Below are positions 1 to 10,777 of a stretch of DNA of 64,000 bases, in pieces. This DNA comes from Bryobacteraceae bacterium CoA2 C42 (GTDB taxonomy: Bacteria; Acidobacteriota; Terriglobia; Bryobacterales; Bryobacteraceae). The position numbers were made by a program, and so were the translations under genes. Position 1 is the first letter of the stretch, and each line of letters starts with the position of its first letter. The DNA lies in the NCBI GenBank assembly GCA_019931245.1, contig JAINDL010000076.1, positions 1-64,000 of the forward strand, written 5' to 3'. The notes beneath the pieces are model-generated. The model worked only from the letters and a program-made list of their open reading frames with translations, had not been told where the DNA came from and did no database searches.

Positions 1-1
1 T

Positions 2-829
2 GCGCGTGCGATGCGACAGCGATTGATCGATGCCGCGCGCCGGCTGGACATTGATGTCGTGTTGGTTTGGCGACTGGATCGTTGGGGCCGGTCGGTTGCC
101 GACCTGGTATCGAGGTTGCAGGAACTTACGGCGCTTGGTGTGGGATTCGTTTCGGTGACGGAGGCGTTGGACCTGACTACGCCGGCGGGCCGGGCGATGG
201 CGGGACTACTTTCGGTTTTCGCGGAGTTTGAAAGGGACATTATGCGGGAGCGGGTGCGGGTGCGGGCCGGCTTGGCGCATGCTCGGCTGCAAGGGAAGCG
301 GCTTGGACGGCCGCCGACGGCCGCTGGCAAAGCGGGCACCGTCAGGGACCTATTTCTCGCAGGAATCAGCAAATCGGAGATCGCGCGGCGGTTGAAGATC
401 GGCCGAATATCGGTTCGGCGGCTGCTGGAAGAAAAGAAATCCCGATCGGAACTGGCTTACGCAGGCTTGCCGAAAGGACACCGGAACACCAGGATTTTCC
501 GCATGGGCCGATGCCGGAAATCCTGGTCCCCTTTTTTGGCGATGTCGAAGATGAGTATCGGACGAGGGAGCGTGCATTTCCGGACCCAACGTCCTTGGTC
601 TTGGTCGATGAGGCAGACCGGCTCCGGATGGCCAGCCTCGAACAAATACGGGGCATCTTCGATGAGGGAGACATCGGGTTGGTTCTCATCGGGATGCCGG
701 GGATCGAGAAGCGTCTGGCGCGCTATCCCCAGTTCTACTCGCGCATCGGCTTCGTTCACGAGTTCCGCCAGCTGGGCGTGGCAGAGATTCGCCGCTTGCT
801 GGCCCAACCGTGGGTTCCTTCCGGCGTGA
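2..829 (+). pseudogene. Serine recombinase (resolvase), 5' end outside window, 3' end fused to foreign sequence
   Basis: The frame is already open at the window edge, so the N-terminus with the catalytic serine lies outside. Visible are the WRLDRWGRS and FAEFERDI motifs of the resolvase/invertase catalytic core, then a C-terminal helix-turn-helix (KSEIARRLKIGRISVRRLL, near residues 120-140 counted from the ATG at 11). Resolvase homology ends near position 446. The frame then runs about 380 bases through the out-of-frame 5' part of the following ATPase gene and stops at 829. The tail after residue ~146 looks like non-native read-through. The closest relative in the window is the intact resolvase at 6125. 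Family known: site-specific resolution of transposon cointegrates or DNA inversion. Chimera inferred. Confidence 0.75.
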
Positions 830-1017
830 AGCTGCCGCCGCAGCCGTGGGCCGACGACGCCATCGCTGCCATCATCAGAATCACGAGCGGGAACTTCCGC
901 TTGTTAAACCGGCTTCTCACTCAGATGGAGCGCATTCTCGAAATCAACGGAATACAGGAGATCACGAAGACCGTCGTTGAAACAGCTCGTGAGACTCTGG
1001 TGATCGGCGTGGCCTGA
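511..1017 (+). pseudogene. Transposition AAA ATPase (TniB/TnsC/ExeA-like), 3' fragment
   Basis: The 168 codons encode the C-terminal half of a transposon AAA ATPase. They contain a Walker B motif (LVLVDEADRL), the following GLVLIGMPGIEKRL sensor-1-type strand, and a lid region ending SGNFRLLNRLLTQMERI. The Walker A P-loop and the upstream half are absent. In their place is the resolvase frame, which overlaps this one in a different register. The homologous frame may extend upstream of the ATG to about 446. Proteins of this kind regulate DDE transposases in Tn7-, Tn5053- and Mu-like elements by target DNA binding and ATP hydrolysis. Without a P-loop this copy should be inactive. No DDE transposase is visible in the window. 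Confidence 0.7.
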
Positions 1018-1307: not shown

Positions 1308-2876
1308 CTACCGAACTGCCAAGCGTTCAGTCAGGTCCAGGTTGCCACCTTTCACTGCGCCCCCCAAAATGAGCAGCGCGCCCGCGGCCGGGACCATACG
1401 ATGGGCGAGCCGTTGTGCGCTACGGCCAACGCGCTGCCACGGCTCGCCAGCCGCGTTGAGGACAAAAAGGCTGCCGTCGCCGGTGCTGGCGTAAAGCTTG
1501 TCCTGCAGTACTGCTGCGGCGGGTGCGAAACCGCTCATCGCGTCTCCGGGCAGGGCGGGCCCCTTGGTCCAAACGTTGGTCACCGGATCGTACACGTCCA
1601 CCTCCGTGCTCACTTTGCCCGACGGCGTGATGCCGCCGATTACGTACACGCGTCCGTTCCAAACCGCGGTAACGAGAGCGCGGCGTTCATACGGCTGCGC
1701 AACCTCGCGCCATCCGGCTGAGGGATTGTGCAGGTCGAGCAGCAGGGTGGTTTTGGCCCAGAGCGACGGCTCGGCGCCGCGTAAAGTCCACCCGCCGGTC
1801 ACGATGAGCTGATGGCCCACCACCGCAACATCGTGCGAGGATCTCGGCACCGGTAGCGCGGGCCAGGCGGCCCAGGCGCCGGACGTGCCTTCAAAGCACG
1901 CCACTTCGTCTACCGAATGATTGTCTGCCTTCTGACCCTGCGCGTTGCGCGGCTGCATGCCCCCGACACGGCAGACCTTGCCGGCGTGCGCCGCCAGGTT
2001 CAACCCCTGCAGTGGCGTGGCGGCCGGCAGACGCTCCCAATCGCCGCCGGCGAGCTTGCGCCGGCTGAACTGGCCAGACACCGACGCCTGCGAATAAGAA
2101 TGCGTTTGAGCAATATGGCCGCCATAGACATAAAGCCAGTCGCCCTCCACGGCCGCTCCGAAGCTGGATGTCTTTTCCGGCAGCGACGTGACGGCTTCCG
2201 GCTGCGCCAGAGAGTCGAACACCAGCATGGCGTAGTGGCGGGTCTGCTCATAACGCTTGCCCGCCTGCTCGCCGGTCTTGTTCTCCCAGAAGCGGGCCCA
2301 AGCGCCGTAGCGGCCGTGCTGATGAAATGGCCCGGCCACTCCAGAGGCGTCCGTCTTTGCCTTCTGTTGCTGGCCGTCCGGAAGCAGCACGGTGATCTCC
2401 GCGCCGGCGAGCGGCTCCCCGCGAACCAGCAGGCGCAAGCTCATGTGTCCGGGCTTGCCCTGTGGTGTCATCTCAACCACCTGGTCTCCGCCGATGATAG
2501 TGGCGGGCGTGAAGGCGTTGCCCAGAATCGTTTTCGGATAGTAAAGCAGTAGGTGTGGCGTGGTGTCCTTGCCCCGGCTCGCCACGCCGAGATTGGCCGA
2601 GCCGTAAACGACGCGGTCACCAGTGCCCGGCAGGGCCAACACAAAACGATGCCCATCCTGCTCCATCTTTAGGTTCGTCACGGTTCCCTGGGAATTGCGA
2701 AGGTAGAGTTGCGCGCCGGCAGCTAGCGCCGGGTTTACCGTGTCCCGGGAGGAGAGCGTTTCACCGAGAATCATCTCGGCGGCTTCGTCGCCGGGCAGCG
2801 GCAGAATGAAAGTGAAGTGCGCCTGAGCCACGGTGGCCAGCGCGACACAGGTGTAAAGGAGCTTGGTTATCTTCAT
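1308..2876 (-). CDS. Secreted DUF4198-like / kelch-repeat fusion protein
   Basis: The 522-residue protein starts with a signal peptide (MKITKLLYTCVALATVAQA). Predicted cleavage after AQA would expose an N-terminal histidine (HFTFILPLPG). Residues ~20-215 resemble DUF4198/NikM-like periplasmic metal-associated Ig domains, with a carboxypeptidase-regulatory-like loop near 160-190. Residues ~225-522 carry kelch-type propeller repeats (for example VYVIGGITPSGKVSTEVDVYD followed by W and P-A-L-P). It is the last gene of a three-gene minus-strand operon, 18 bases after the TonB receptor stop, with an AAAGGAC ribosome site. The receptor next door suggests a role in handling a metal or metal complex at the outer membrane. 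This role is inferred. The two-domain architecture is unusual. Confidence 0.8.
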   Translation of the reverse strand: MKITKLLYTCVALATVAQAHFTFILPLPGDEAAEMILGETLSSRDTVNPALAAGAQLYLRNSQGTVTNLKMEQDGHRFVLALPGTGDRVVYGSANLGVASRGKDTTPHLLLYYPKTILGNAFTPATIIGGDQVVEMTPQGKPGHMSLRLLVRGEPLAGAEITVLLPDGQQQKAKTDASGVAGPFHQHGRYGAWARFWENKTGEQAGKRYEQTRHYAMLVFDSLAQPEAVTSLPEKTSSFGAAVEGDWLYVYGGHIAQTHSYSQASVSGQFSRRKLAGGDWERLPAATPLQGLNLAAHAGKVCRVGGMQPRNAQGQKADNHSVDEVACFEGTSGAWAAWPALPVPRSSHDVAVVGHQLIVTGGWTLRGAEPSLWAKTTLLLDLHNPSAGWREVAQPYERRALVTAVWNGRVYVIGGITPSGKVSTEVDVYDPVTNVWTKGPALPGDAMSGFAPAAAVLQDKLYASTGDGSLFVLNAAGEPWQRVGRSAQRLAHRMVPAAGALLILGGAVKGGNLDLTERLAVR

Positions 2877-2894: not shown

Positions 2895-5117
2895 TTACTG
2901 GTCTTGACGGAAGCGATAGCGCAGTCCCAAGCGGAACGTGCGGCCGTAGTCGGGACGGTCAAAAGAAGCGGGGGTAAGTTGCAACTTCCCGTCGCGGCTG
3001 TTGTTGAGATTGTCGATGGCTACGAAGGTTTGAATTCCCCGTCGCAGGTCCTTGGCGGCAAACGCATCCCAAATCTGGAAGGGAAGTCCTCGCGTGCCGG
3101 TAACAGCGTTCAACAGCCAATGGCTGTAGAACGAGCCGCGCAGGTTGGCATTGACGCCCCAGCGCGGAATGGCATAGTCGAGCCGCGTCTGGCCGTGATG
3201 GCGGTGACGCTGCGGCAGGCCCAACCGCGTGTTCCGATCGAGCGCGTTCAGGAACGTGTAGGCGCCGCTCAGTCGCAGATTGCGGTTGAAGGCAAACTCC
3301 CCATCCAGTTCCACTCCCTGGGTGAAGATGCGCGCCTGGTTGACGTAGACGAACGTCTGCCGGCCGAGCAGCGGATCGAAGAAGGCCGGAATTCCGTAGC
3401 TGGTGAGGATGGCGTTTAATTCCGTGGCGGAACGCGGCGTACCCGTGAGCCGGCTGTCGATCAGATCGCGGATATCGTTACGGAAGAGCGTGACGCCCGC
3501 ACGATAGCGGCGGTGTCGATAGAGCGCGCCCGCCTGGAATGTACGGCTATGTTCCGGCTTCAAGGTTGGGTTACCGATTACCTGATAGAAATTCGCCGGA
3601 TTCGCAAACCGGAAGTAGAGTTGGCCGAGATCGGGCGCGCGAAACCCCAGGCCGAAAGATCCACGCAGAATCCAGTTGTTGCTCAGCTTCACGATCGCGC
3701 CGGCTTTGGGCACGGCGGCATTGCCGAAGAGCGAATGCGCCGTCACCCGCCCGCCCATGGTCAGCGTCAGCCAGCGGTTGACGCTCCACTTATCCTGCAG
3801 CCACGTATCGGTCGATGTGACCTGCTGGCCAACGTTGTCTCCCACCAACCGGTTGGCGCCGCGATAGAGGTTCTGGCTCCACTCAACGCCGCCTTGGACG
3901 AAATGCGCTCCGTCGACTTGGCGCGAGAGCGTGGCGTCCAGCCGCTTCAACCGTTCGTTCAGGTTCGAAGGCGACGGCGGTTCGGGGCGGCCGAGCGGCG
4001 TGGTGAGGTTGTTCTCGTCGTAGCGGGCCGAGTATCCGCGCGCCTGCAGGGTGGTAGCGTGGTCGAGTACCAAATCGGCGACGAGCGCGAAGGTCTGCGT
4101 AGAGTCATTCGAGACACCTGAAACGGGACCGGTCTCGCTGGCGTTGCGGCCCCTGTCGCGGTTGTGATAGGCGTTCGCCGTAAAGCCCAGCGCCAGCTTC
4201 GGATGGAACTGATAGCGGATCTTGGCCAAGCCATCACGACGTTGCGTATCGGGACCCACGGTGGTCGGACTCCCCGGAATCAGTTGATAGGAGTCGAGTC
4301 GGCTTTCGCCCAGATTCACGAAGTAGCTCACCGGTCCGCGGCGTCCTCCGAGATCACCGCGGACGTCAACCATGCCGAGCGAACCCCCGGACGCCGATAC
4401 CCCTGCTTCAAACGGTGACGACGGTTCCCGCGTGATCATGTTGATCACGCCGCCCATCGCGTCGCTGCCATACGTGGATGAGCCGGAACCCTTGGCCACT
4501 TCCACTCGCGCGAGCCGGTCGGAAGTCTGCCGGTTCAGATTGACCGCGCCCGACTTGATCCCGCGCGCGCCTACGATGGGTAGGCCATCCTGTAAGACCA
4601 ACACCTGGCGGGAGTCGATGCCCTGGATCTGCTCACCTCCCACCGTGGACGTGCTGCCGCGGCGCACAAGCACGCCGGGGATTTCCTGCAGAGCATCGGA
4701 GACCCGCTCGTAGCCGGTGTTCAGCATTTGCTCGCGCGTAACGGCTTCCACTTTGGTGGGCGATTCCTCCTGGAGTTCCTCCGTCCGCGAAGCGCTTACC
4801 ACCGTGACAGAGGTGCGCATACTGCGGGGCTGCAACGTCACCTGAAGGGCCTGCCGTGGCTCGGTGAGATTCAGTTCCGCGCGGCCCTCCAGGTCTTGGT
4901 TCGATGCCGTGATGAGGTAGAATCCCGCCCCGAGTTCCAAGTCGCAGACGCCCAGCGAGTCGGTGGTGCATGACTTGTGGGCTCCGGTGGCGCGATGCTG
5001 AGCCCGGACGGCGAGACCGGAGGCAATCGAACCGCTTCCATCCTTCGTGCGGATCTCAAGTCTCGTACCCTGGGCCAGCACGGCCGATGCAGCCGCGAGA
5101 AGCAAAACGGTTCTCAT
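2895..5117 (-). CDS. TonB-dependent outer-membrane receptor (BtuB/FepA-type plug)
   Basis: The 740-residue protein has a short signal peptide (MRTVLLLAAASAVLAQ), an Ig/carboxypeptidase-regulatory-like N-domain (~20-95), a plug (~110-230; LQEIPGVLVRRGS, QVLVLQDGLPI, ARVEVAKGSGSSTYGSDAMGGVINMIT) and a beta-barrel ending in aromatic-rich strands (FRLGLRYRF). Length is typical of metal-chelate, siderophore or cobalamin receptors and shorter than the Oar-type receptor at 18703. The start is supported by AGAGGAGT upstream. Its ATG overlaps the stop of the upstream small gene as ATGA, indicating translational coupling. It imports a ligand across the outer membrane using TonB/ExbBD energy, but the substrate cannot be named from sequence. 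The operon lies between two resolvase genes, so it may be transposon cargo. Confidence 0.92.
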   Translation of the reverse strand: MRTVLLLAAASAVLAQGTRLEIRTKDGSGSIASGLAVRAQHRATGAHKSCTTDSLGVCDLELGAGFYLITASNQDLEGRAELNLTEPRQALQVTLQPRSMRTSVTVVSASRTEELQEESPTKVEAVTREQMLNTGYERVSDALQEIPGVLVRRGSTSTVGGEQIQGIDSRQVLVLQDGLPIVGARGIKSGAVNLNRQTSDRLARVEVAKGSGSSTYGSDAMGGVINMITREPSSPFEAGVSASGGSLGMVDVRGDLGGRRGPVSYFVNLGESRLDSYQLIPGSPTTVGPDTQRRDGLAKIRYQFHPKLALGFTANAYHNRDRGRNASETGPVSGVSNDSTQTFALVADLVLDHATTLQARGYSARYDENNLTTPLGRPEPPSPSNLNERLKRLDATLSRQVDGAHFVQGGVEWSQNLYRGANRLVGDNVGQQVTSTDTWLQDKWSVNRWLTLTMGGRVTAHSLFGNAAVPKAGAIVKLSNNWILRGSFGLGFRAPDLGQLYFRFANPANFYQVIGNPTLKPEHSRTFQAGALYRHRRYRAGVTLFRNDIRDLIDSRLTGTPRSATELNAILTSYGIPAFFDPLLGRQTFVYVNQARIFTQGVELDGEFAFNRNLRLSGAYTFLNALDRNTRLGLPQRHRHHGQTRLDYAIPRWGVNANLRGSFYSHWLLNAVTGTRGLPFQIWDAFAAKDLRRGIQTFVAIDNLNNSRDGKLQLTPASFDRPDYGRTFRLGLRYRFRQDQ

Positions 5118-5356
5118 GCGGCACTCCTCTGGTGATGGGCCCAGATCTCAAAGTTTGCGGCGGCTCGATTCAATAGAATGACCAATGATTGAAAGCCGGC
5201 GAGGTCGGTACGTAGGTGTACGTCGCCGAGACAAAGGTGAATGTGTTCGCACTTGTTGCAGGCGAATACGGTTCCAAGGGCGGGTTCGATGGCCAACACC
5301 CGTTTCCGAGGGGAGCTAGCCGAAACGCTCCGGTGGGGCGCATGCGGAATTTCCAT
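5114..5356 (-). CDS. Small Cys/His protein coupled to the TonB receptor
   Basis: The protein has 80 residues. The start at 5356 is preferred over a longer frame because AAGGAGAA lies directly upstream. Residues 33-42 hold a compact cluster, CNKCEHIHLC (Cys33, Cys36, His38, His40, Cys42), suited to binding a metal ion. The segment after it (GDVHLRTDLAGFQSLVILL) resembles small Bacteroidota proteins of the DUF6686 kind, a tentative match from memory. There is no signal peptide, so it is probably cytosolic. Its stop codon overlaps the receptor ATG (ATGA). It is the first gene of the operon. A metal sensing, buffering or delivery role is plausible but inferred. Confidence 0.65.
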   Translation of the reverse strand: MEIPHAPHRSVSASSPRKRVLAIEPALGTVFACNKCEHIHLCLGDVHLRTDLAGFQSLVILLNRAAANFEIWAHHQRSAA

Positions 5357-5489
5357 GACAATTCTCCTTGACGAAGCTTGCCCGGATTCCGCTATTCTGG
5401 AAGCCGCAGGCTGCTTCGGTGGTTTGCGATCAGGTCCTGCGGGTTGCTCGGCCAAGAACGGCCCGCGGGACTTCCTCTTGCCCCGCAAG

Positions 5490-5508
5490 TTCGCAACTGA
5501 GTTGCAAA
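5490..5508. promoter_or_regulatory. Fur-family-like operator palindrome
   Basis: TTCGCAACTGAGTTGCAAA is a 19-base interrupted palindrome centred on G5499, with eight of nine base pairs matching. It lies about 134 bases upstream of the first gene of the TonB operon. The TGCAA-type half-sites recall Fur-family boxes. The regulator is inferred from the operon's content and is not shown by the sequence. Confidence 0.4.
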
Positions 5509-6025
5509 ATGAGGGACTACCAAATAATACGACCGAAATGGTCCGGTAGTCAACCCACAGTTTGGATACCGGGTTCCGGCTGTCCAGTGGACAACGCGCT
5601 ATCGTGCCCCGATGCTTGATTTACGGGGGATCAAGCCTCTAGTTCAAGGCGCAGTTCTTCCCGACCTGGACCCCTCTATGCTCCCAGGCTGGTCATCGGT
5701 GTGAACACGGCCCGGAAGACTCTCGGGACATGTTTCTGATGCAAATGGATTGCAGTGTCCAGTGGCAACGGCACCCGGCGTAGCCCCATAAGCCATGAAT
5801 CGCCGTAGCCAGTCGCAGCCTAGTAGAGCTGCTGCACCGGGCCACTTCGCGTTTGAAACCTGCAATTCGGTCTACGCACGGGCTTGGGTTTGCTTCGATC
5901 ATTGACAGCGCCCACCGGTCTGTCGGTTGTTCACAAATCACGATAAGTCGCGCAGTGTAGGGCAGACTGGTACAGTTCCGGAACCGGTACCAGCCGGGCA
6001 TGTTCGCTGGGTTGGCCCCATGTGA

Positions 6026-6067
6026 AAAAACTAAAGTTTTTGGGCATACTGGTATCGAGTGCCCAAA
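6026..6067. promoter_or_regulatory. Paired palindromes upstream of resolvase (possible res/operator site)
   Basis: Two overlapping perfect inverted repeats lie here. AAAAACT (6026-6032) and AGTTTTT (6035-6041) are separated by AA. TTTGGGCA (6039-6046) and TGCCCAAA (6060-6067) are separated by 13 bases. They end 57 bases before the preferred resolvase start. Resolvase genes commonly sit beside their own recombination/operator sites, so this is the best local candidate. Confidence 0.4.
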
Positions 6068-6124
6068 GCCCTTAAAAAAGCCCGTTCTTCGAGCCCCAAA
6101 CAGGGAGGGGTTTTTGGACAGGGG

Positions 6125-6715
6125 GTGTCGGCGCTTCGTGTCGGCTTGTACGCCCGAGTCTCCACGCATGATCAGCAAACGCTACCCATGCAACTCTCGA
6201 CCATGAGGGACTACGCCAAGCGAAGGAAATGGGCGGTTGCGGTCGAAATCCAGGATGTTGGATCAGGAGCCACTACCCGCCCGGAGCGTCAGAAGCTCAT
6301 CGAGGCCGCCCGGCGGCGCGAGATCGACTTGGTTTTGGTGTGGCGGCTCGACAGGTGGGGCCGGTCTTTGGTGGATCTCGTGACGACGATGCAGGAGTTG
6401 ACGGCTCTGGACGTGGGCTTCGTCTCCCTGAGCGAGGCCCTGGACATGACGACGCCGAGCGGCCGAGCACTCGCCGGTATGCTGGCAGTGTTCGCGGAGT
6501 TCGAACGCGATATTCTCCGGGATCGCGTTAAGGCAGGAATTGATCAGGCTCGTAAGGAGGGCAAACCTCATGGGCGGCCCCAGACTGCGGCGAAGTTGAT
6601 CCCTGAGATGAAGCTTCTTCGCAAGGACGGGCTGAGCAAACGCGCGATCGCCAAGGAACTGGGGATCAGCCGGACCTCCGTGATTCGACTTCTACGGGCA
6701 AAGAAGCGATCTTAG
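6125..6715 (+). CDS. Serine recombinase (resolvase family), intact
   Basis: With the GTG start at 6125 the product has 196 residues and begins a few residues before the catalytic motif LYARVSTHDQQ (Ser13). That is the normal geometry for small resolvases. A longer frame from 6059 is open but would swallow half of an upstream hairpin. The protein has the WRLDRWGRSL and FAEFERDILRDRV core motifs and a C-terminal helix-turn-helix (KRAIAKELGISRTSVIRLL). It is closely similar to the partial resolvase at 2-445. Role: resolution or inversion by a serine-linked covalent intermediate. It lies 16 bases before the terminal repeats at 6732, so it probably belongs to the same transposable element. Confidence 0.9.
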   Translation: MSALRVGLYARVSTHDQQTLPMQLSTMRDYAKRRKWAVAVEIQDVGSGATTRPERQKLIEAARRREIDLVLVWRLDRWGRSLVDLVTTMQELTALDVGFVSLSEALDMTTPSGRALAGMLAVFAEFERDILRDRVKAGIDQARKEGKPHGRPQTAAKLIPEMKLLRKDGLSKRAIAKELGISRTSVIRLLRAKKRS

Positions 6716-6731: not shown

Positions 6732-6781
6732 TACGCCAAATAGCGTGCAAACTTCTACGCCAAATAATTTGCAAAGTGACA
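6732..6781. repeat. Transposon right-end terminal repeats (two tandem copies, ending TGACA)
   Basis: TACGCCAAATAGCGTGCAAAC (6732-6752) and TACGCCAAATAATTTGCAAAG (6756-6776) are offset by exactly 24 bases and differ mainly in a four-base core. TGACA follows (6777-6781). Read outward-in, the end is 5'-TGTCACTTTGC. Several transposase-binding repeats at an end starting TGT are typical of Tn7/Tn5053/Mu-type elements. The DUF262 reading frame loses homology at exactly this point. Confidence 0.65.
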
Positions 6782-8153
6782 GGAATCGGTGGTGCGGATG
6801 GTCTTGTTGGCGAAGGCGGAGCGGAAAACGGAGTCGTCGGGATAGATGCTGCGCAGGGGTTGGAGAGCGCCGGTGAGGGTGGTGAGCTGGCGGGTGGCGA
6901 TGTGCTCGGTGACCTCGTTGTATCGTCGCTCCTGTTCCCCGGTGCTGTAGGAGCCAATGACGTTGAAGCGCATCGAGATGACCACGGTGGCGCGCAGCAG
7001 GGCGGTGAAATCGGCTGGAGCGAAGGCGCGCCGGGCGGCCAGGAGCAGTGGGAAAGGCTGGCGGACGCGGAAGAGTTTCAGGGTTGCAGCCAGGAGCTTG
7101 TCTTCTGGGCTCCAGTCGGATGGCTCGGGCGAAGACAGGGCCAGGTAGGTATCGAGGTCCTCCTCGATTTCGCGGAGGAGTTGGAAGGCCACCTGCCGGG
7201 TGCGTACGGCGGACCGGATGGTCTTGAAGAGATCGGAATGGCGGGAGAAGGGGTGGCGGCTGTTCCAGTGGGCGCGAAGAAAGTCCGGGAAGTTCTCAGC
7301 CTGGAGGCGACCGACGACGAGCTCCCAACGGTCTTCGCGGAACACGCGCACAACGGACTCGCTACGGCCTGTGCGCTGCGAGAGAACGGAGTTCGTGATC
7401 AGACTCGGCGCCGGAGTCAAGGAGGGAGAACAGGTAGTTCTTGAGCAGATCCGTGGCCGAGAGGCGGACGCCGCGGGCGTTGAGCGTTTCGAACACCTTG
7501 TAGGCATTGAGTTCGTCGGTGACGGTGATGACGGTGAAGAATAAGCGATCGCAGAGGTCTTCGCCCAGTTGGGCAAGTCGCCTGCCTTCCTGACCGGCAG
7601 TTGCTTTGAGGTATTCGTTGATACGCTGGTCAAACCATTCGAACGCCTTGCGCAGGGCGTGTTCCGAGGCGCGGAGACCGCGCTGGGGCAGGCGGCCGAG
7701 CGGCACCAGGTGGTTTTGAAAGTAGCTGTTGTTGTTCCGATTGAGGGTGAGCTTCGGGCGGGCGACGAGGGTGACGGGGTCGAGGTATCCGATGTAGGTT
7801 TGTCGCATCTGGTCGATGCGGCGCTGGTTGGATGCGGCATCGTCGCCGGCATCGATCAGACGTTGGAGGTTTTTCAGAATGGCCAGCAGAATGATGGTGA
7901 TGGTGGTGAGGCGCTGCTGGCCATCGATGACGTCAAAGGTCTTGTCATCGGCGGACTGGAGGACGAGGTAACCCATGTAGTGAGCGCTTTCCCCATGGGC
8001 CTGGAGCGTGCCCTGGATATCCATCCACAGATCCTCCCATTCGTCCTGGGTCCATGTGTAGTCCCGCTGGAAGCGGGGGATACGGTAAGTGAGGCCGTTG
8101 CCGAGGAGCTTCCGGAAGGTGTCGCTTTCGGTTTTGAAATTGGTGGCGGCCAT
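6782..8153 (-). pseudogene. DUF262 family protein, frameshifted and truncated by element insertion
   Basis: Reading from 8153, residues 1-~255 are a DUF262 domain with YRIPRFQRDYTW and the DGQQRLTT motif (DVIDGQQRLTTI). Homology then continues in another frame (WELVVGRLQAENFPDFLRAHW onward), so there is a frameshift at about 7362-7400. The second frame keeps the expected family sequence up to FRSAFANKTIRTTDS, where it meets the TGTCA end of the element at 6781. The C-terminal DUF1524 HNH region expected in full-length relatives is missing. DUF262/DUF1524 proteins include GmrSD-type modified-DNA restriction enzymes. This copy should be dead. The lost 3' part may lie outside the window, beyond the other end of the element. 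Confidence 0.8.
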
Positions 8154-8233: not shown

Positions 8234-10777
8234 CTATTGGCGGGAGTATTCGACGCCGGTGGGGGTGAGGCGGATGGTGTCGGTCCAGGTGGGGGCAGTG
8301 ATGATGAGGGCGCCGTCGTCGGCGCGGCGGAAGCCGGTGATTTCGGGTTCGGCGCCGTAGGGTTCGAGGAGGGAGATGAATTCGGTTTTAACGCCGCGGC
8401 GGCGGGCCATGACATAGGGGACCGGCTTGGTCAGATCCTCTCCGAGGCCATTGCCGGTGACTACTTCCGTGCCCGGTTCGCCTAACATCCAGACGCGGAG
8501 GCTCTGGAGGGGTACCTCGAACTCGGCGATCCGCAGCGGGTCGCCCGTTTCATAGAGCAGGTCGATGTCGTCGATGAAGAAGGCTCCTTCGGCGGGCGCG
8601 CCGGTGGTCTGCTGGAGTTCGAGAGATAAGGTGCGGAGAGGGAGATCGATGACCCCATCGTCGTTGCCGAGATAGTGCGTCCAGGTCTGGGGGTTGGTTA
8701 CGGTTACCTCCTTCCAACCGGTCCAGTCGATGGTGAGGAGCGGGGCGACGAAGCGCTCGTCGGTTGTATCGTTCACCCGAAGGGCGATGCGGTGGCGGGA
8801 GCCGTCGCCGTAGATCCTCAGGCGAAGGCCGGCGGGACGGTTGGCGGGCTGAGGGAGATTGGTGATGTTGGGGGTTGAGTAGAGTAAGTAGCCGGGGCCG
8901 CTGAAGCGGTAGTCGAGGCGGCCGGAGCCGGTGCCGGAGGCGGCCTGTTCGCGGGAGGTGGTGAAGGCTCCTTTGACGTTGGTCGTGCTGGCGTAGACGG
9001 AGCCGTAGGCGCCGAGGCGGGCGCGGGCGCCATCGAAGCGGAGCTGCCAGTCGCCGGGGGCGGGGGCGGAGCGGTTGTTGGTGAGGTGCTGGTAGCCCAT
9101 GGCGCGGGGCAGGGGCGGAGCGGGGACGAGGGGCAGGGAGGTGAGGACCTCGCCCTGGTTGTGGTACGCCCAGTCGAACTGGTGGGGCTGCTGATCGGTG
9201 GCGGCGGCTTCAAAGAGATCGAGAGTGTATTCGCTGGTATGGAGGAGGGAGCGGGTGAGGCTGGCTTGGGGATAGGCCTGGCCGGCCGAGGCGCGGACGA
9301 AGGAGAAGTTGGGTTCGAACTGGCTGGCGAGGAGTTGGCCGGTGGCGGCGGCCTGGGTGCGCTCGTCGACGGTGATGGTGTTGTGGGCGATGGTTTGCTG
9401 ATCCCAGGTGGCATGGGTGGGGGCGCCGTAGGCCTGGGTGCCGGGGTCGATGGCGAGGATGCCGCCGCGGGCGTAGGAGACGAAGTTGAGCTTGTCGTAG
9501 TGGCCGTGGCCGCCGCCGTGGGGGCCGTACTTGAGAATCAGCGTATGGTCGGAGGGGGCGGGGGCGCGGAGGACGGCGTAGCCGGAGTCGGGGAGCAGGG
9601 CGCTGGTGAGCGGGGCGGGCGGGGCGGCGGGGAGTTCGGGGACGCCGAACAGAAGGGCTTCGCGGCCGCGGGCGCGGGAGGCGGCGAGGAGGGCGAACAG
9701 GGGATCGCCCCAGCGGGCGTAGGCGGATTCGTACCAGCGGCTGTAGTTTTGGAGGTTGACGGTGACGGCGTCGTTGAAGGGCGGGAGGGTGCCGCCGGGT
9801 AGGGCGAAGCGCAGGGGAGCGGAGAAGAGATTCTGGAGCGAGGGTTCGGCGAAGAGGCTGGATTCTCCGGCGCGGGCGGCGAGTTCGGCGGTTTGCCAGA
9901 GGGCGTCGAGGGCGTAGTAGTGATAGGTAAAGCTGCCTTCGTACCAGAAGCCGTCGGGGGTGACGGATTGGCGGAGCTGGAAGCGGAGGCCGCTGGGGCC
10001 GTCGAGGGCCTGGGAGAGGAGGGGGCTGTCGTTGAGGGTGACGGCGACGGCGGCGAGGGCGGCGTTGTGCCAGGACTGCCAGTTGGAGATGCCGGCGTCG
10101 TGGCGGAGGATGGTGGCGGCGGCTTCGCGGAGGAGGTGGCGTTCGATGCGGGCGGATTGATCGGGAGAGAGGATGTCGGCACCCTGGAGGAGATCGAAGG
10201 CCCAGGCGAGGGGGAGGAGCCAGATGGCTTCATCGAGGGTTTGGGCGTGGACGCGGGCGCCGGAGCGGGTGTTGCGATTGTCGCGGTCGTGGAGGGGGAG
10301 GGCGGGGTAGCGTTCGGCGTAGGCGTTGAGGATCCAGGCGGCTTTTTCGGCGTAGGTGATGTTGCCGGTGAGGCGGTAGGCGAGGGCGAGGTCGCGGGCG
10401 GCGTTGGCGAGGGCGTCGTGGCGGTTGGCGTAGATGACCTGGTCGTAGGGCCAGCCGGTGAGGCGGCGGTTATCGCTGGGGCAGACGTGGCCGTTGGGCG
10501 GTTCAAAGCGGAGGGGGACGCCGGTGGTGGGGCAGACGTACCAGTGGGGCCACTGGCCGCCTTCGGGAGGGAGGGCGAGTTCGCGGAGGCCGAAGCGGGC
10601 GAGGTGGGACTGGGGCCAGGAGTCGGCGGTATTGATGAGGGTGGCGCGGACGGCGGCGGCCCAGCCGTACTGGCTGATGTTTTCCTGGAGGCGGGCGAGA
10701 TCGGCATCCGGGAGGAGCCGCGACTGGGCGGAGAGGCAGCCGTGGCTCACGAGGGCGGCGAGGAGGGCGAGGCGCAA
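8234..10777 (-). CDS. Heparinase II/III and alginate-lyase-like polysaccharide lyase
   Basis: The 847-residue protein has a signal-like N-terminus (LALLAALVSHGCLSAQ). An alpha-toroid alginate-lyase-type domain covers ~90-340, with the conserved NWQSWH at 232-237 and FWYEGSFTYHYYAL near 277-290. A heparinase II/III-like beta-sheet domain covers ~400-560 (KYGPHGGGHGHYDKLNF, 416-432; AIDPGTQAYG; TIAHNTITVDERTQ). The remaining ~280 residues resemble a carbohydrate-binding module. Such enzymes cleave uronic-acid polysaccharides by beta-elimination in the periplasm or outside the cell. The only workable start is TTG, five bases after the upstream gene's stop and without a clear ribosome site, so translation may depend on re-initiation. 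Confidence 0.82.
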   Translation of the reverse strand: MRLALLAALVSHGCLSAQSRLLPDADLARLQENISQYGWAAAVRATLINTADSWPQSHLARFGLRELALPPEGGQWPHWYVCPTTGVPLRFEPPNGHVCPSDNRRLTGWPYDQVIYANRHDALANAARDLALAYRLTGNITYAEKAAWILNAYAERYPALPLHDRDNRNTRSGARVHAQTLDEAIWLLPLAWAFDLLQGADILSPDQSARIERHLLREAAATILRHDAGISNWQSWHNAALAAVAVTLNDSPLLSQALDGPSGLRFQLRQSVTPDGFWYEGSFTYHYYALDALWQTAELAARAGESSLFAEPSLQNLFSAPLRFALPGGTLPPFNDAVTVNLQNYSRWYESAYARWGDPLFALLAASRARGREALLFGVPELPAAPPAPLTSALLPDSGYAVLRAPAPSDHTLILKYGPHGGGHGHYDKLNFVSYARGGILAIDPGTQAYGAPTHATWDQQTIAHNTITVDERTQAAATGQLLASQFEPNFSFVRASAGQAYPQASLTRSLLHTSEYTLDLFEAAATDQQPHQFDWAYHNQGEVLTSLPLVPAPPLPRAMGYQHLTNNRSAPAPGDWQLRFDGARARLGAYGSVYASTTNVKGAFTTSREQAASGTGSGRLDYRFSGPGYLLYSTPNITNLPQPANRPAGLRLRIYGDGSRHRIALRVNDTTDERFVAPLLTIDWTGWKEVTVTNPQTWTHYLGNDDGVIDLPLRTLSLELQQTTGAPAEGAFFIDDIDLLYETGDPLRIAEFEVPLQSLRVWMLGEPGTEVVTGNGLGEDLTKPVPYVMARRRGVKTEFISLLEPYGAEPEITGFRRADDGALIITAPTWTDTIRLTPTGVEYSRQ

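Follow-up and report, generated by a model that had tools for sequence, protein, structure and literature searches.

A transposon, very probably of the Tn552 family, that splits a GmrSD-like (DUF262-DUF1524) gene in an Acidobacteriota genome

Transposons of the Tn552 family, represented by Tn552 of Staphylococcus and Tn6870 of Listeria, encode a DDE transposase, an AAA ATPase and a serine resolvase, and duplicate 6 to 7 bp of their target. Their TGTCAC ends lie in inverted repeats of about 48 to 52 bp, with two presumed binding sites 23 to 24 bp apart, and their cargo consists of beta-lactamase or metal-efflux genes. Arrays of ∼20-bp transposase sites have been described at the ends of Tn552 (PMC8649781), and a transposase of the B3/Tn552 family leaves a 6-bp duplication (PMC8705779). 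The Tn552-like Tn6870 combines a transposase, a serine recombinase and an ATPase with 48-bp imperfect inverted repeats and 6-bp duplications (PMC7698968).

The DNA analysed here (the window, 64,000 nucleotides) corresponds to bases 1-64000 of contig C125, in a genome assembly of 6.07 Mb and 237 contigs, and the contig starts at the first base of the window. We found in it one part of a transposon which we assign, with little doubt, to the Tn552 family, inserted in a GmrSD-like (DUF262-DUF1524) gene; the host is an Acidobacteriota bacterium (Table 1). The family features are inverted TGTCA ends with two presumed sites of ∼20 nt, a 6-bp duplication, an ATPase of the p271 type and a serine resolvase. 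That a transposon has inserted here is clear, and in itself ordinary; its host and its cargo are unusual for the family.

Table 1. Features of the transposon and of its target gene in the window
Feature	Position	Strand	Remarks
Right-end piece of a second element (IS66/DruA/resolvase type), with resolvase 3′ part	1..481	+	Motif CTTGCCGAAAGGACAC at 466-481
AAA ATPase gene, 3′ part (Tn552 p271 / TnsC type)	482..1017	+	AAA_22
Cargo: kelch-repeat protein	1308..2876	-	Weak DUF4198 similarity
Cargo: TonB-dependent outer-membrane receptor	2895..5117	-	PF00593, E 1.2e-42; PF07715
Small ORF beside the receptor, putative gene	5114..5488	-	No Pfam match
Serine resolvase, pointing at the right end	6059..6715	+	PF00239, E 2.3e-42
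Site 2, second presumed transposase-binding repeat, 24 bp inwards	6732..6751	-	TACGCCAAATAGCGTGCAAA; TATTT core, offset 39
Site 1, terminal-proximal presumed transposase-binding repeat	6756..6775	-	TACGCCAAATAATTTGCAAA; TATTT core, offset 15 from end
Terminal GTGACA (TGTCAC inwards), last bases of the right end	6776..6781	-	
Target duplication copy GGAATC (GATTCC on minus strand)	6782..6787	.	Other copy C15:11909-11914
Interrupted target gene, N-terminal DUF262 part (GmrSD_N)	6782..8153	-	PF03235; PADLOC HEC-06 and Orf5 models
One 43-bp unit of a dispersed palindromic repeat, frameshifting the target gene	7337..7379	.	

The right end is marked by two 20-nt repeats, identical at 17 of 20 positions (85%) and starting exactly 24 bp apart, as the initial annotation had seen when it described two near-identical repeats abutting TGACA. 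Across the 64 kb no other pair with at least 17/20 identity was found at this spacing, and none occurred in 60 windows simulated with a first-order Markov model. Tn552-type relatives have the outer TATTT core at the same distance from the end, and the terminus itself recurs at C15:11915, at C123:86 and in the relatives L105, L110, L112 and L113. The boundary had been proposed to be precise. Indeed, the minus-strand DUF262 gene resumes at 6782, immediately after the terminal GTGACA, and this limit is exact since the missing remainder, found on contig C15, continues the reading frame from precisely there. When 396 genomes of the phylum were scanned for an exact match to the two repeats, only the genome of origin was returned; the ends thus diverge too much between species for a search of this kind.

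Because contig C125 begins at window base 1, the left end of the element cannot be on it. Searching the genome for the end sequence gave two further copies, on C15 and C123. The left end is the one at C15:11914-11965, at the very end of C15; it is inverted, identical at 52/52 positions, and followed inwards by different DNA. An inverted partner had been expected within 50 kb to the left: the partner exists, but on C15 and not at that place. Beside it, C15 encodes the missing DUF1524/GmrSD_C half of the target gene (PF07510, E 2.4e-27), which had also been anticipated, together with a short target duplication. When overlaps of 3 to 8 bp between the window and C15 flanks were tried, only the 6-bp overlap GATTCC matched, and a 5-bp duplication was therefore rejected. 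With one GATTCC removed, the two flanks read in one frame (…NKTIRTTDS from one side, RNNKVVRFLL… from the other), and the N-terminal DUF262 and C-terminal DUF1524 domains belong to a single gene. Uninterrupted homologues, the comparison that the initial annotation had called for, are present in two other Acidobacteriota genomes (L116, 594-aa frame, 54%; L117, 574-aa frame, 48%), and both run through the junction point unbroken.

Both halves were found, and the gene matches the PADLOC model HEC-06, a candidate defence system. The proposal that a defence-type (DUF262/DUF1524) gene had been hit agrees with the data; judged by its domains, the target is a GmrSD-like restriction-type gene, with a candidate function in defence, where genes of this type would restrict modified DNA. 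Relative to the intact homologues, it is also frameshifted upstream of the break, at the repeat unit listed in Table 1, a point absent from the initial annotation. The unit belongs to a dispersed repeat of 43-44 bp: at least 41 genomic copies of a 30-bp palindrome-like sequence, CGCACAACGGACTCGCTTCGGCCTGTGCGC, were counted, often arranged in tandem at a 43-44-bp period at contig ends (C158, C97, C148, C62, C21, C22 and others, L150-L161).

The other copy, C123:1-87, is a second right end that includes the tail of the resolvase gene and is identical at 86 of 87 bases. At least one further right-end copy is thus present in the genome. With its one changed base, this copy (L004, C123:21-87) is inserted beside an inverted-repeat terminator-like sequence, and no left partner for it was found in the assembly. 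The existence of this copy, an unassembled middle and a second element lying inside are what could be expected if the DNA between the ends had been rearranged after insertion, for instance by recombination with the C123 copy, in which case the window genes would not all derive from the element that duplicated GATTCC. We consider such a history quite improbable. The matching 6-bp duplication and the perfect 52-bp ends imply that both ends were inserted together, and the ATPase and resolvase genes follow the order found in L105, a complete relative; some internal rearrangement may still have come later.

Assignment of the element to the Tn552 family follows from the end plan, shared by the relatives and the staphylococcal Tn552-type elements, and from the gene order common to the relatives. 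The plan is here TGTCACTTT-N6-TATTT-N19-TATTT; staphylococcal, Scytonema and acidobacterial relatives have in common TGTCACTTT-N6-TATTT and a second TATTT 23 or 24 bases inwards. The complete relative, L105:6790-9956, is 3.17 kb long, comes from another Acidobacteriota genome and has the order end-transposase-ATPase-resolvase-end, between perfect terminal repeats of 26 bp; no clear target duplication was seen around it. It resembles the present element in gene order and end sequences, but it has no cargo and a single repeat at its right end. Its full-length transposase contains both the rve and Mu-transpos_C domains, and is 47-62% identical to Tn552-type transposases, versus 25% to Tn402 TniA. 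Elements of S. equorum and S. arlettae, not S. aureus Tn552 plasmids, were taken as the staphylococcal reference. Other pairs of a Tn552-type transposase and an ATPase were noticed on the Granulicella tundricola plasmid pACIX903 (L107, L111) and on Scytonema plasmid3 (L112, with a TGTCACTTT end at 8519), annotated just as 'Mu transposase C-terminal domain', 'integrase catalytic subunit' or 'hypothetical'.

In the present element, the transposase frame starts at C15:11975, just inside the left end, with MDQLAGLPEGARKLALDRFRLIQ, which aligns with MDDLAELSEHARKLALDRFRLIQ of L105. Only its first 23 codons are assembled, and most of the gene is absent from the assembly. A Pfam search of the genome for Mu-transpos_C gave no match, and the controls of this search were likewise silent. 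The ATPase fragment is 75% identical to that of L105, 65% to L106, 64% to the Scytonema protein and 54-55% to those of the staphylococcal elements. The resolvase gene lies beside the right end, as in L105; inspection of 5480-6070 revealed no clear res site. Similarity of the resolvase alone does not define the family, because the nearest plasmid resolvase, from Acidibrevibacterium, adjoins Tn3-family transposases.

The boundary had initially been attributed to the Tn7/Tn5053/Mu class. It is a transposon boundary; we narrow the family to Tn552, to which Tn7, Tn5053 and Mu are more distantly related. A member of the Tn5053/Tn402 family (TniA, TniB, TniQ and TniR, a 5-bp duplication, and a preference for res sites) would share with our element the Mu/TnsB-like transposase superfamily, TGTCA-type ends and a serine resolvase. 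Yet no TniQ was detected in the 6.8 kb of the window part or in the complete L105, while the Tn402 control did show it. The ATPase falls under AAA_22, not under TniB PF05621, and has no significant similarity to Tn402 TniB, the L105 transposase is far closer to Tn552 types than to TniA, and the duplication is 6 bp, not 5. On TniQ, the ATPase family and the duplication we rejected this assignment, which is very improbable. Least credible is an element that chooses its target sites, of the Tn7-like or CRISPR-associated (CAST) kind, also rejected: distant TnsB/TnsC homology (the ATPase fragment matches ShTnsC of the V-K CAST with E 1e-4) and repeat arrays near the ends are shared, but the closest relatives are of the Tn552 type, neither the assembled part nor L105 showed a tnsA, tnsD/tniQ or cas gene, each end has just two sites, the duplication is 6 bp, and the target is seemingly an ordinary gene.

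By analogy with the Tn552 family, we infer the following steps of transposition. The paired 24-bp-spaced repeats at each end would be bound by the transposase. The DDE transposase (p480/TnsB-like), together with the AAA ATPase (p271/TnsC-like), would join the TGTCA ends to target positions 6 bp apart, and this stagger would duplicate GATTCC. Transposition would be replicative and form a cointegrate, which the serine resolvase encoded near the right end would then resolve.

Compared with the described members of the Tn552 family, the element differs by its Acidobacteriota host and by terminal repeats that are perfect over 52 bp. It also differs by its cargo, a TonB receptor and a kelch protein instead of beta-lactamase or metal-efflux genes, placed between the ATPase and resolvase genes and on the strand opposite to both. 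No relative of the kelch protein was found in the plasmid collection. So far met mainly on resistance plasmids of Staphylococcus and Listeria, the family now reaches Acidobacteriota with a cargo other than resistance, and the compact end signature given above can be used to find further members. Acidobacteriota elements of the Tn552 type might even move outer-membrane nutrient-uptake modules (a TonB receptor with its DUF4198/kelch partner) instead of resistance genes, and disarm host defence in passing whenever they land in restriction-type genes; we hold this to be unlikely.

The window starts inside another element. Its resolvase part is 87-91% identical to L058, L038 and L050, and the motif that closes it is found inverted at both ends of L058:3497-7552, where it encloses an IS66 transposase, DruA and a serine resolvase. 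ATPase homology starts within about ten codons after the motif, so the ATPase gene of the Tn552-type element is probably interrupted by this IS66/DruA-type element, and this copy has probably lost its autonomy. The nested element would also account for the assembly break at the window start.

DruA is known from the Druantia defence system. In several acidobacterial loci (L058, L030, L031, L038, L039, L051, L052), DruA (PF14236) directly precedes an IS66-family transposase and a serine resolvase, and in L058 inverted ends GTGTCCTTTCGGCAAGC enclose these three genes. In L041, L044, L049 and L050, the IS66 transposase and resolvase were found with no DruA match. These arrangements suggest that IS66-type elements carry DruA-like proteins along as components.
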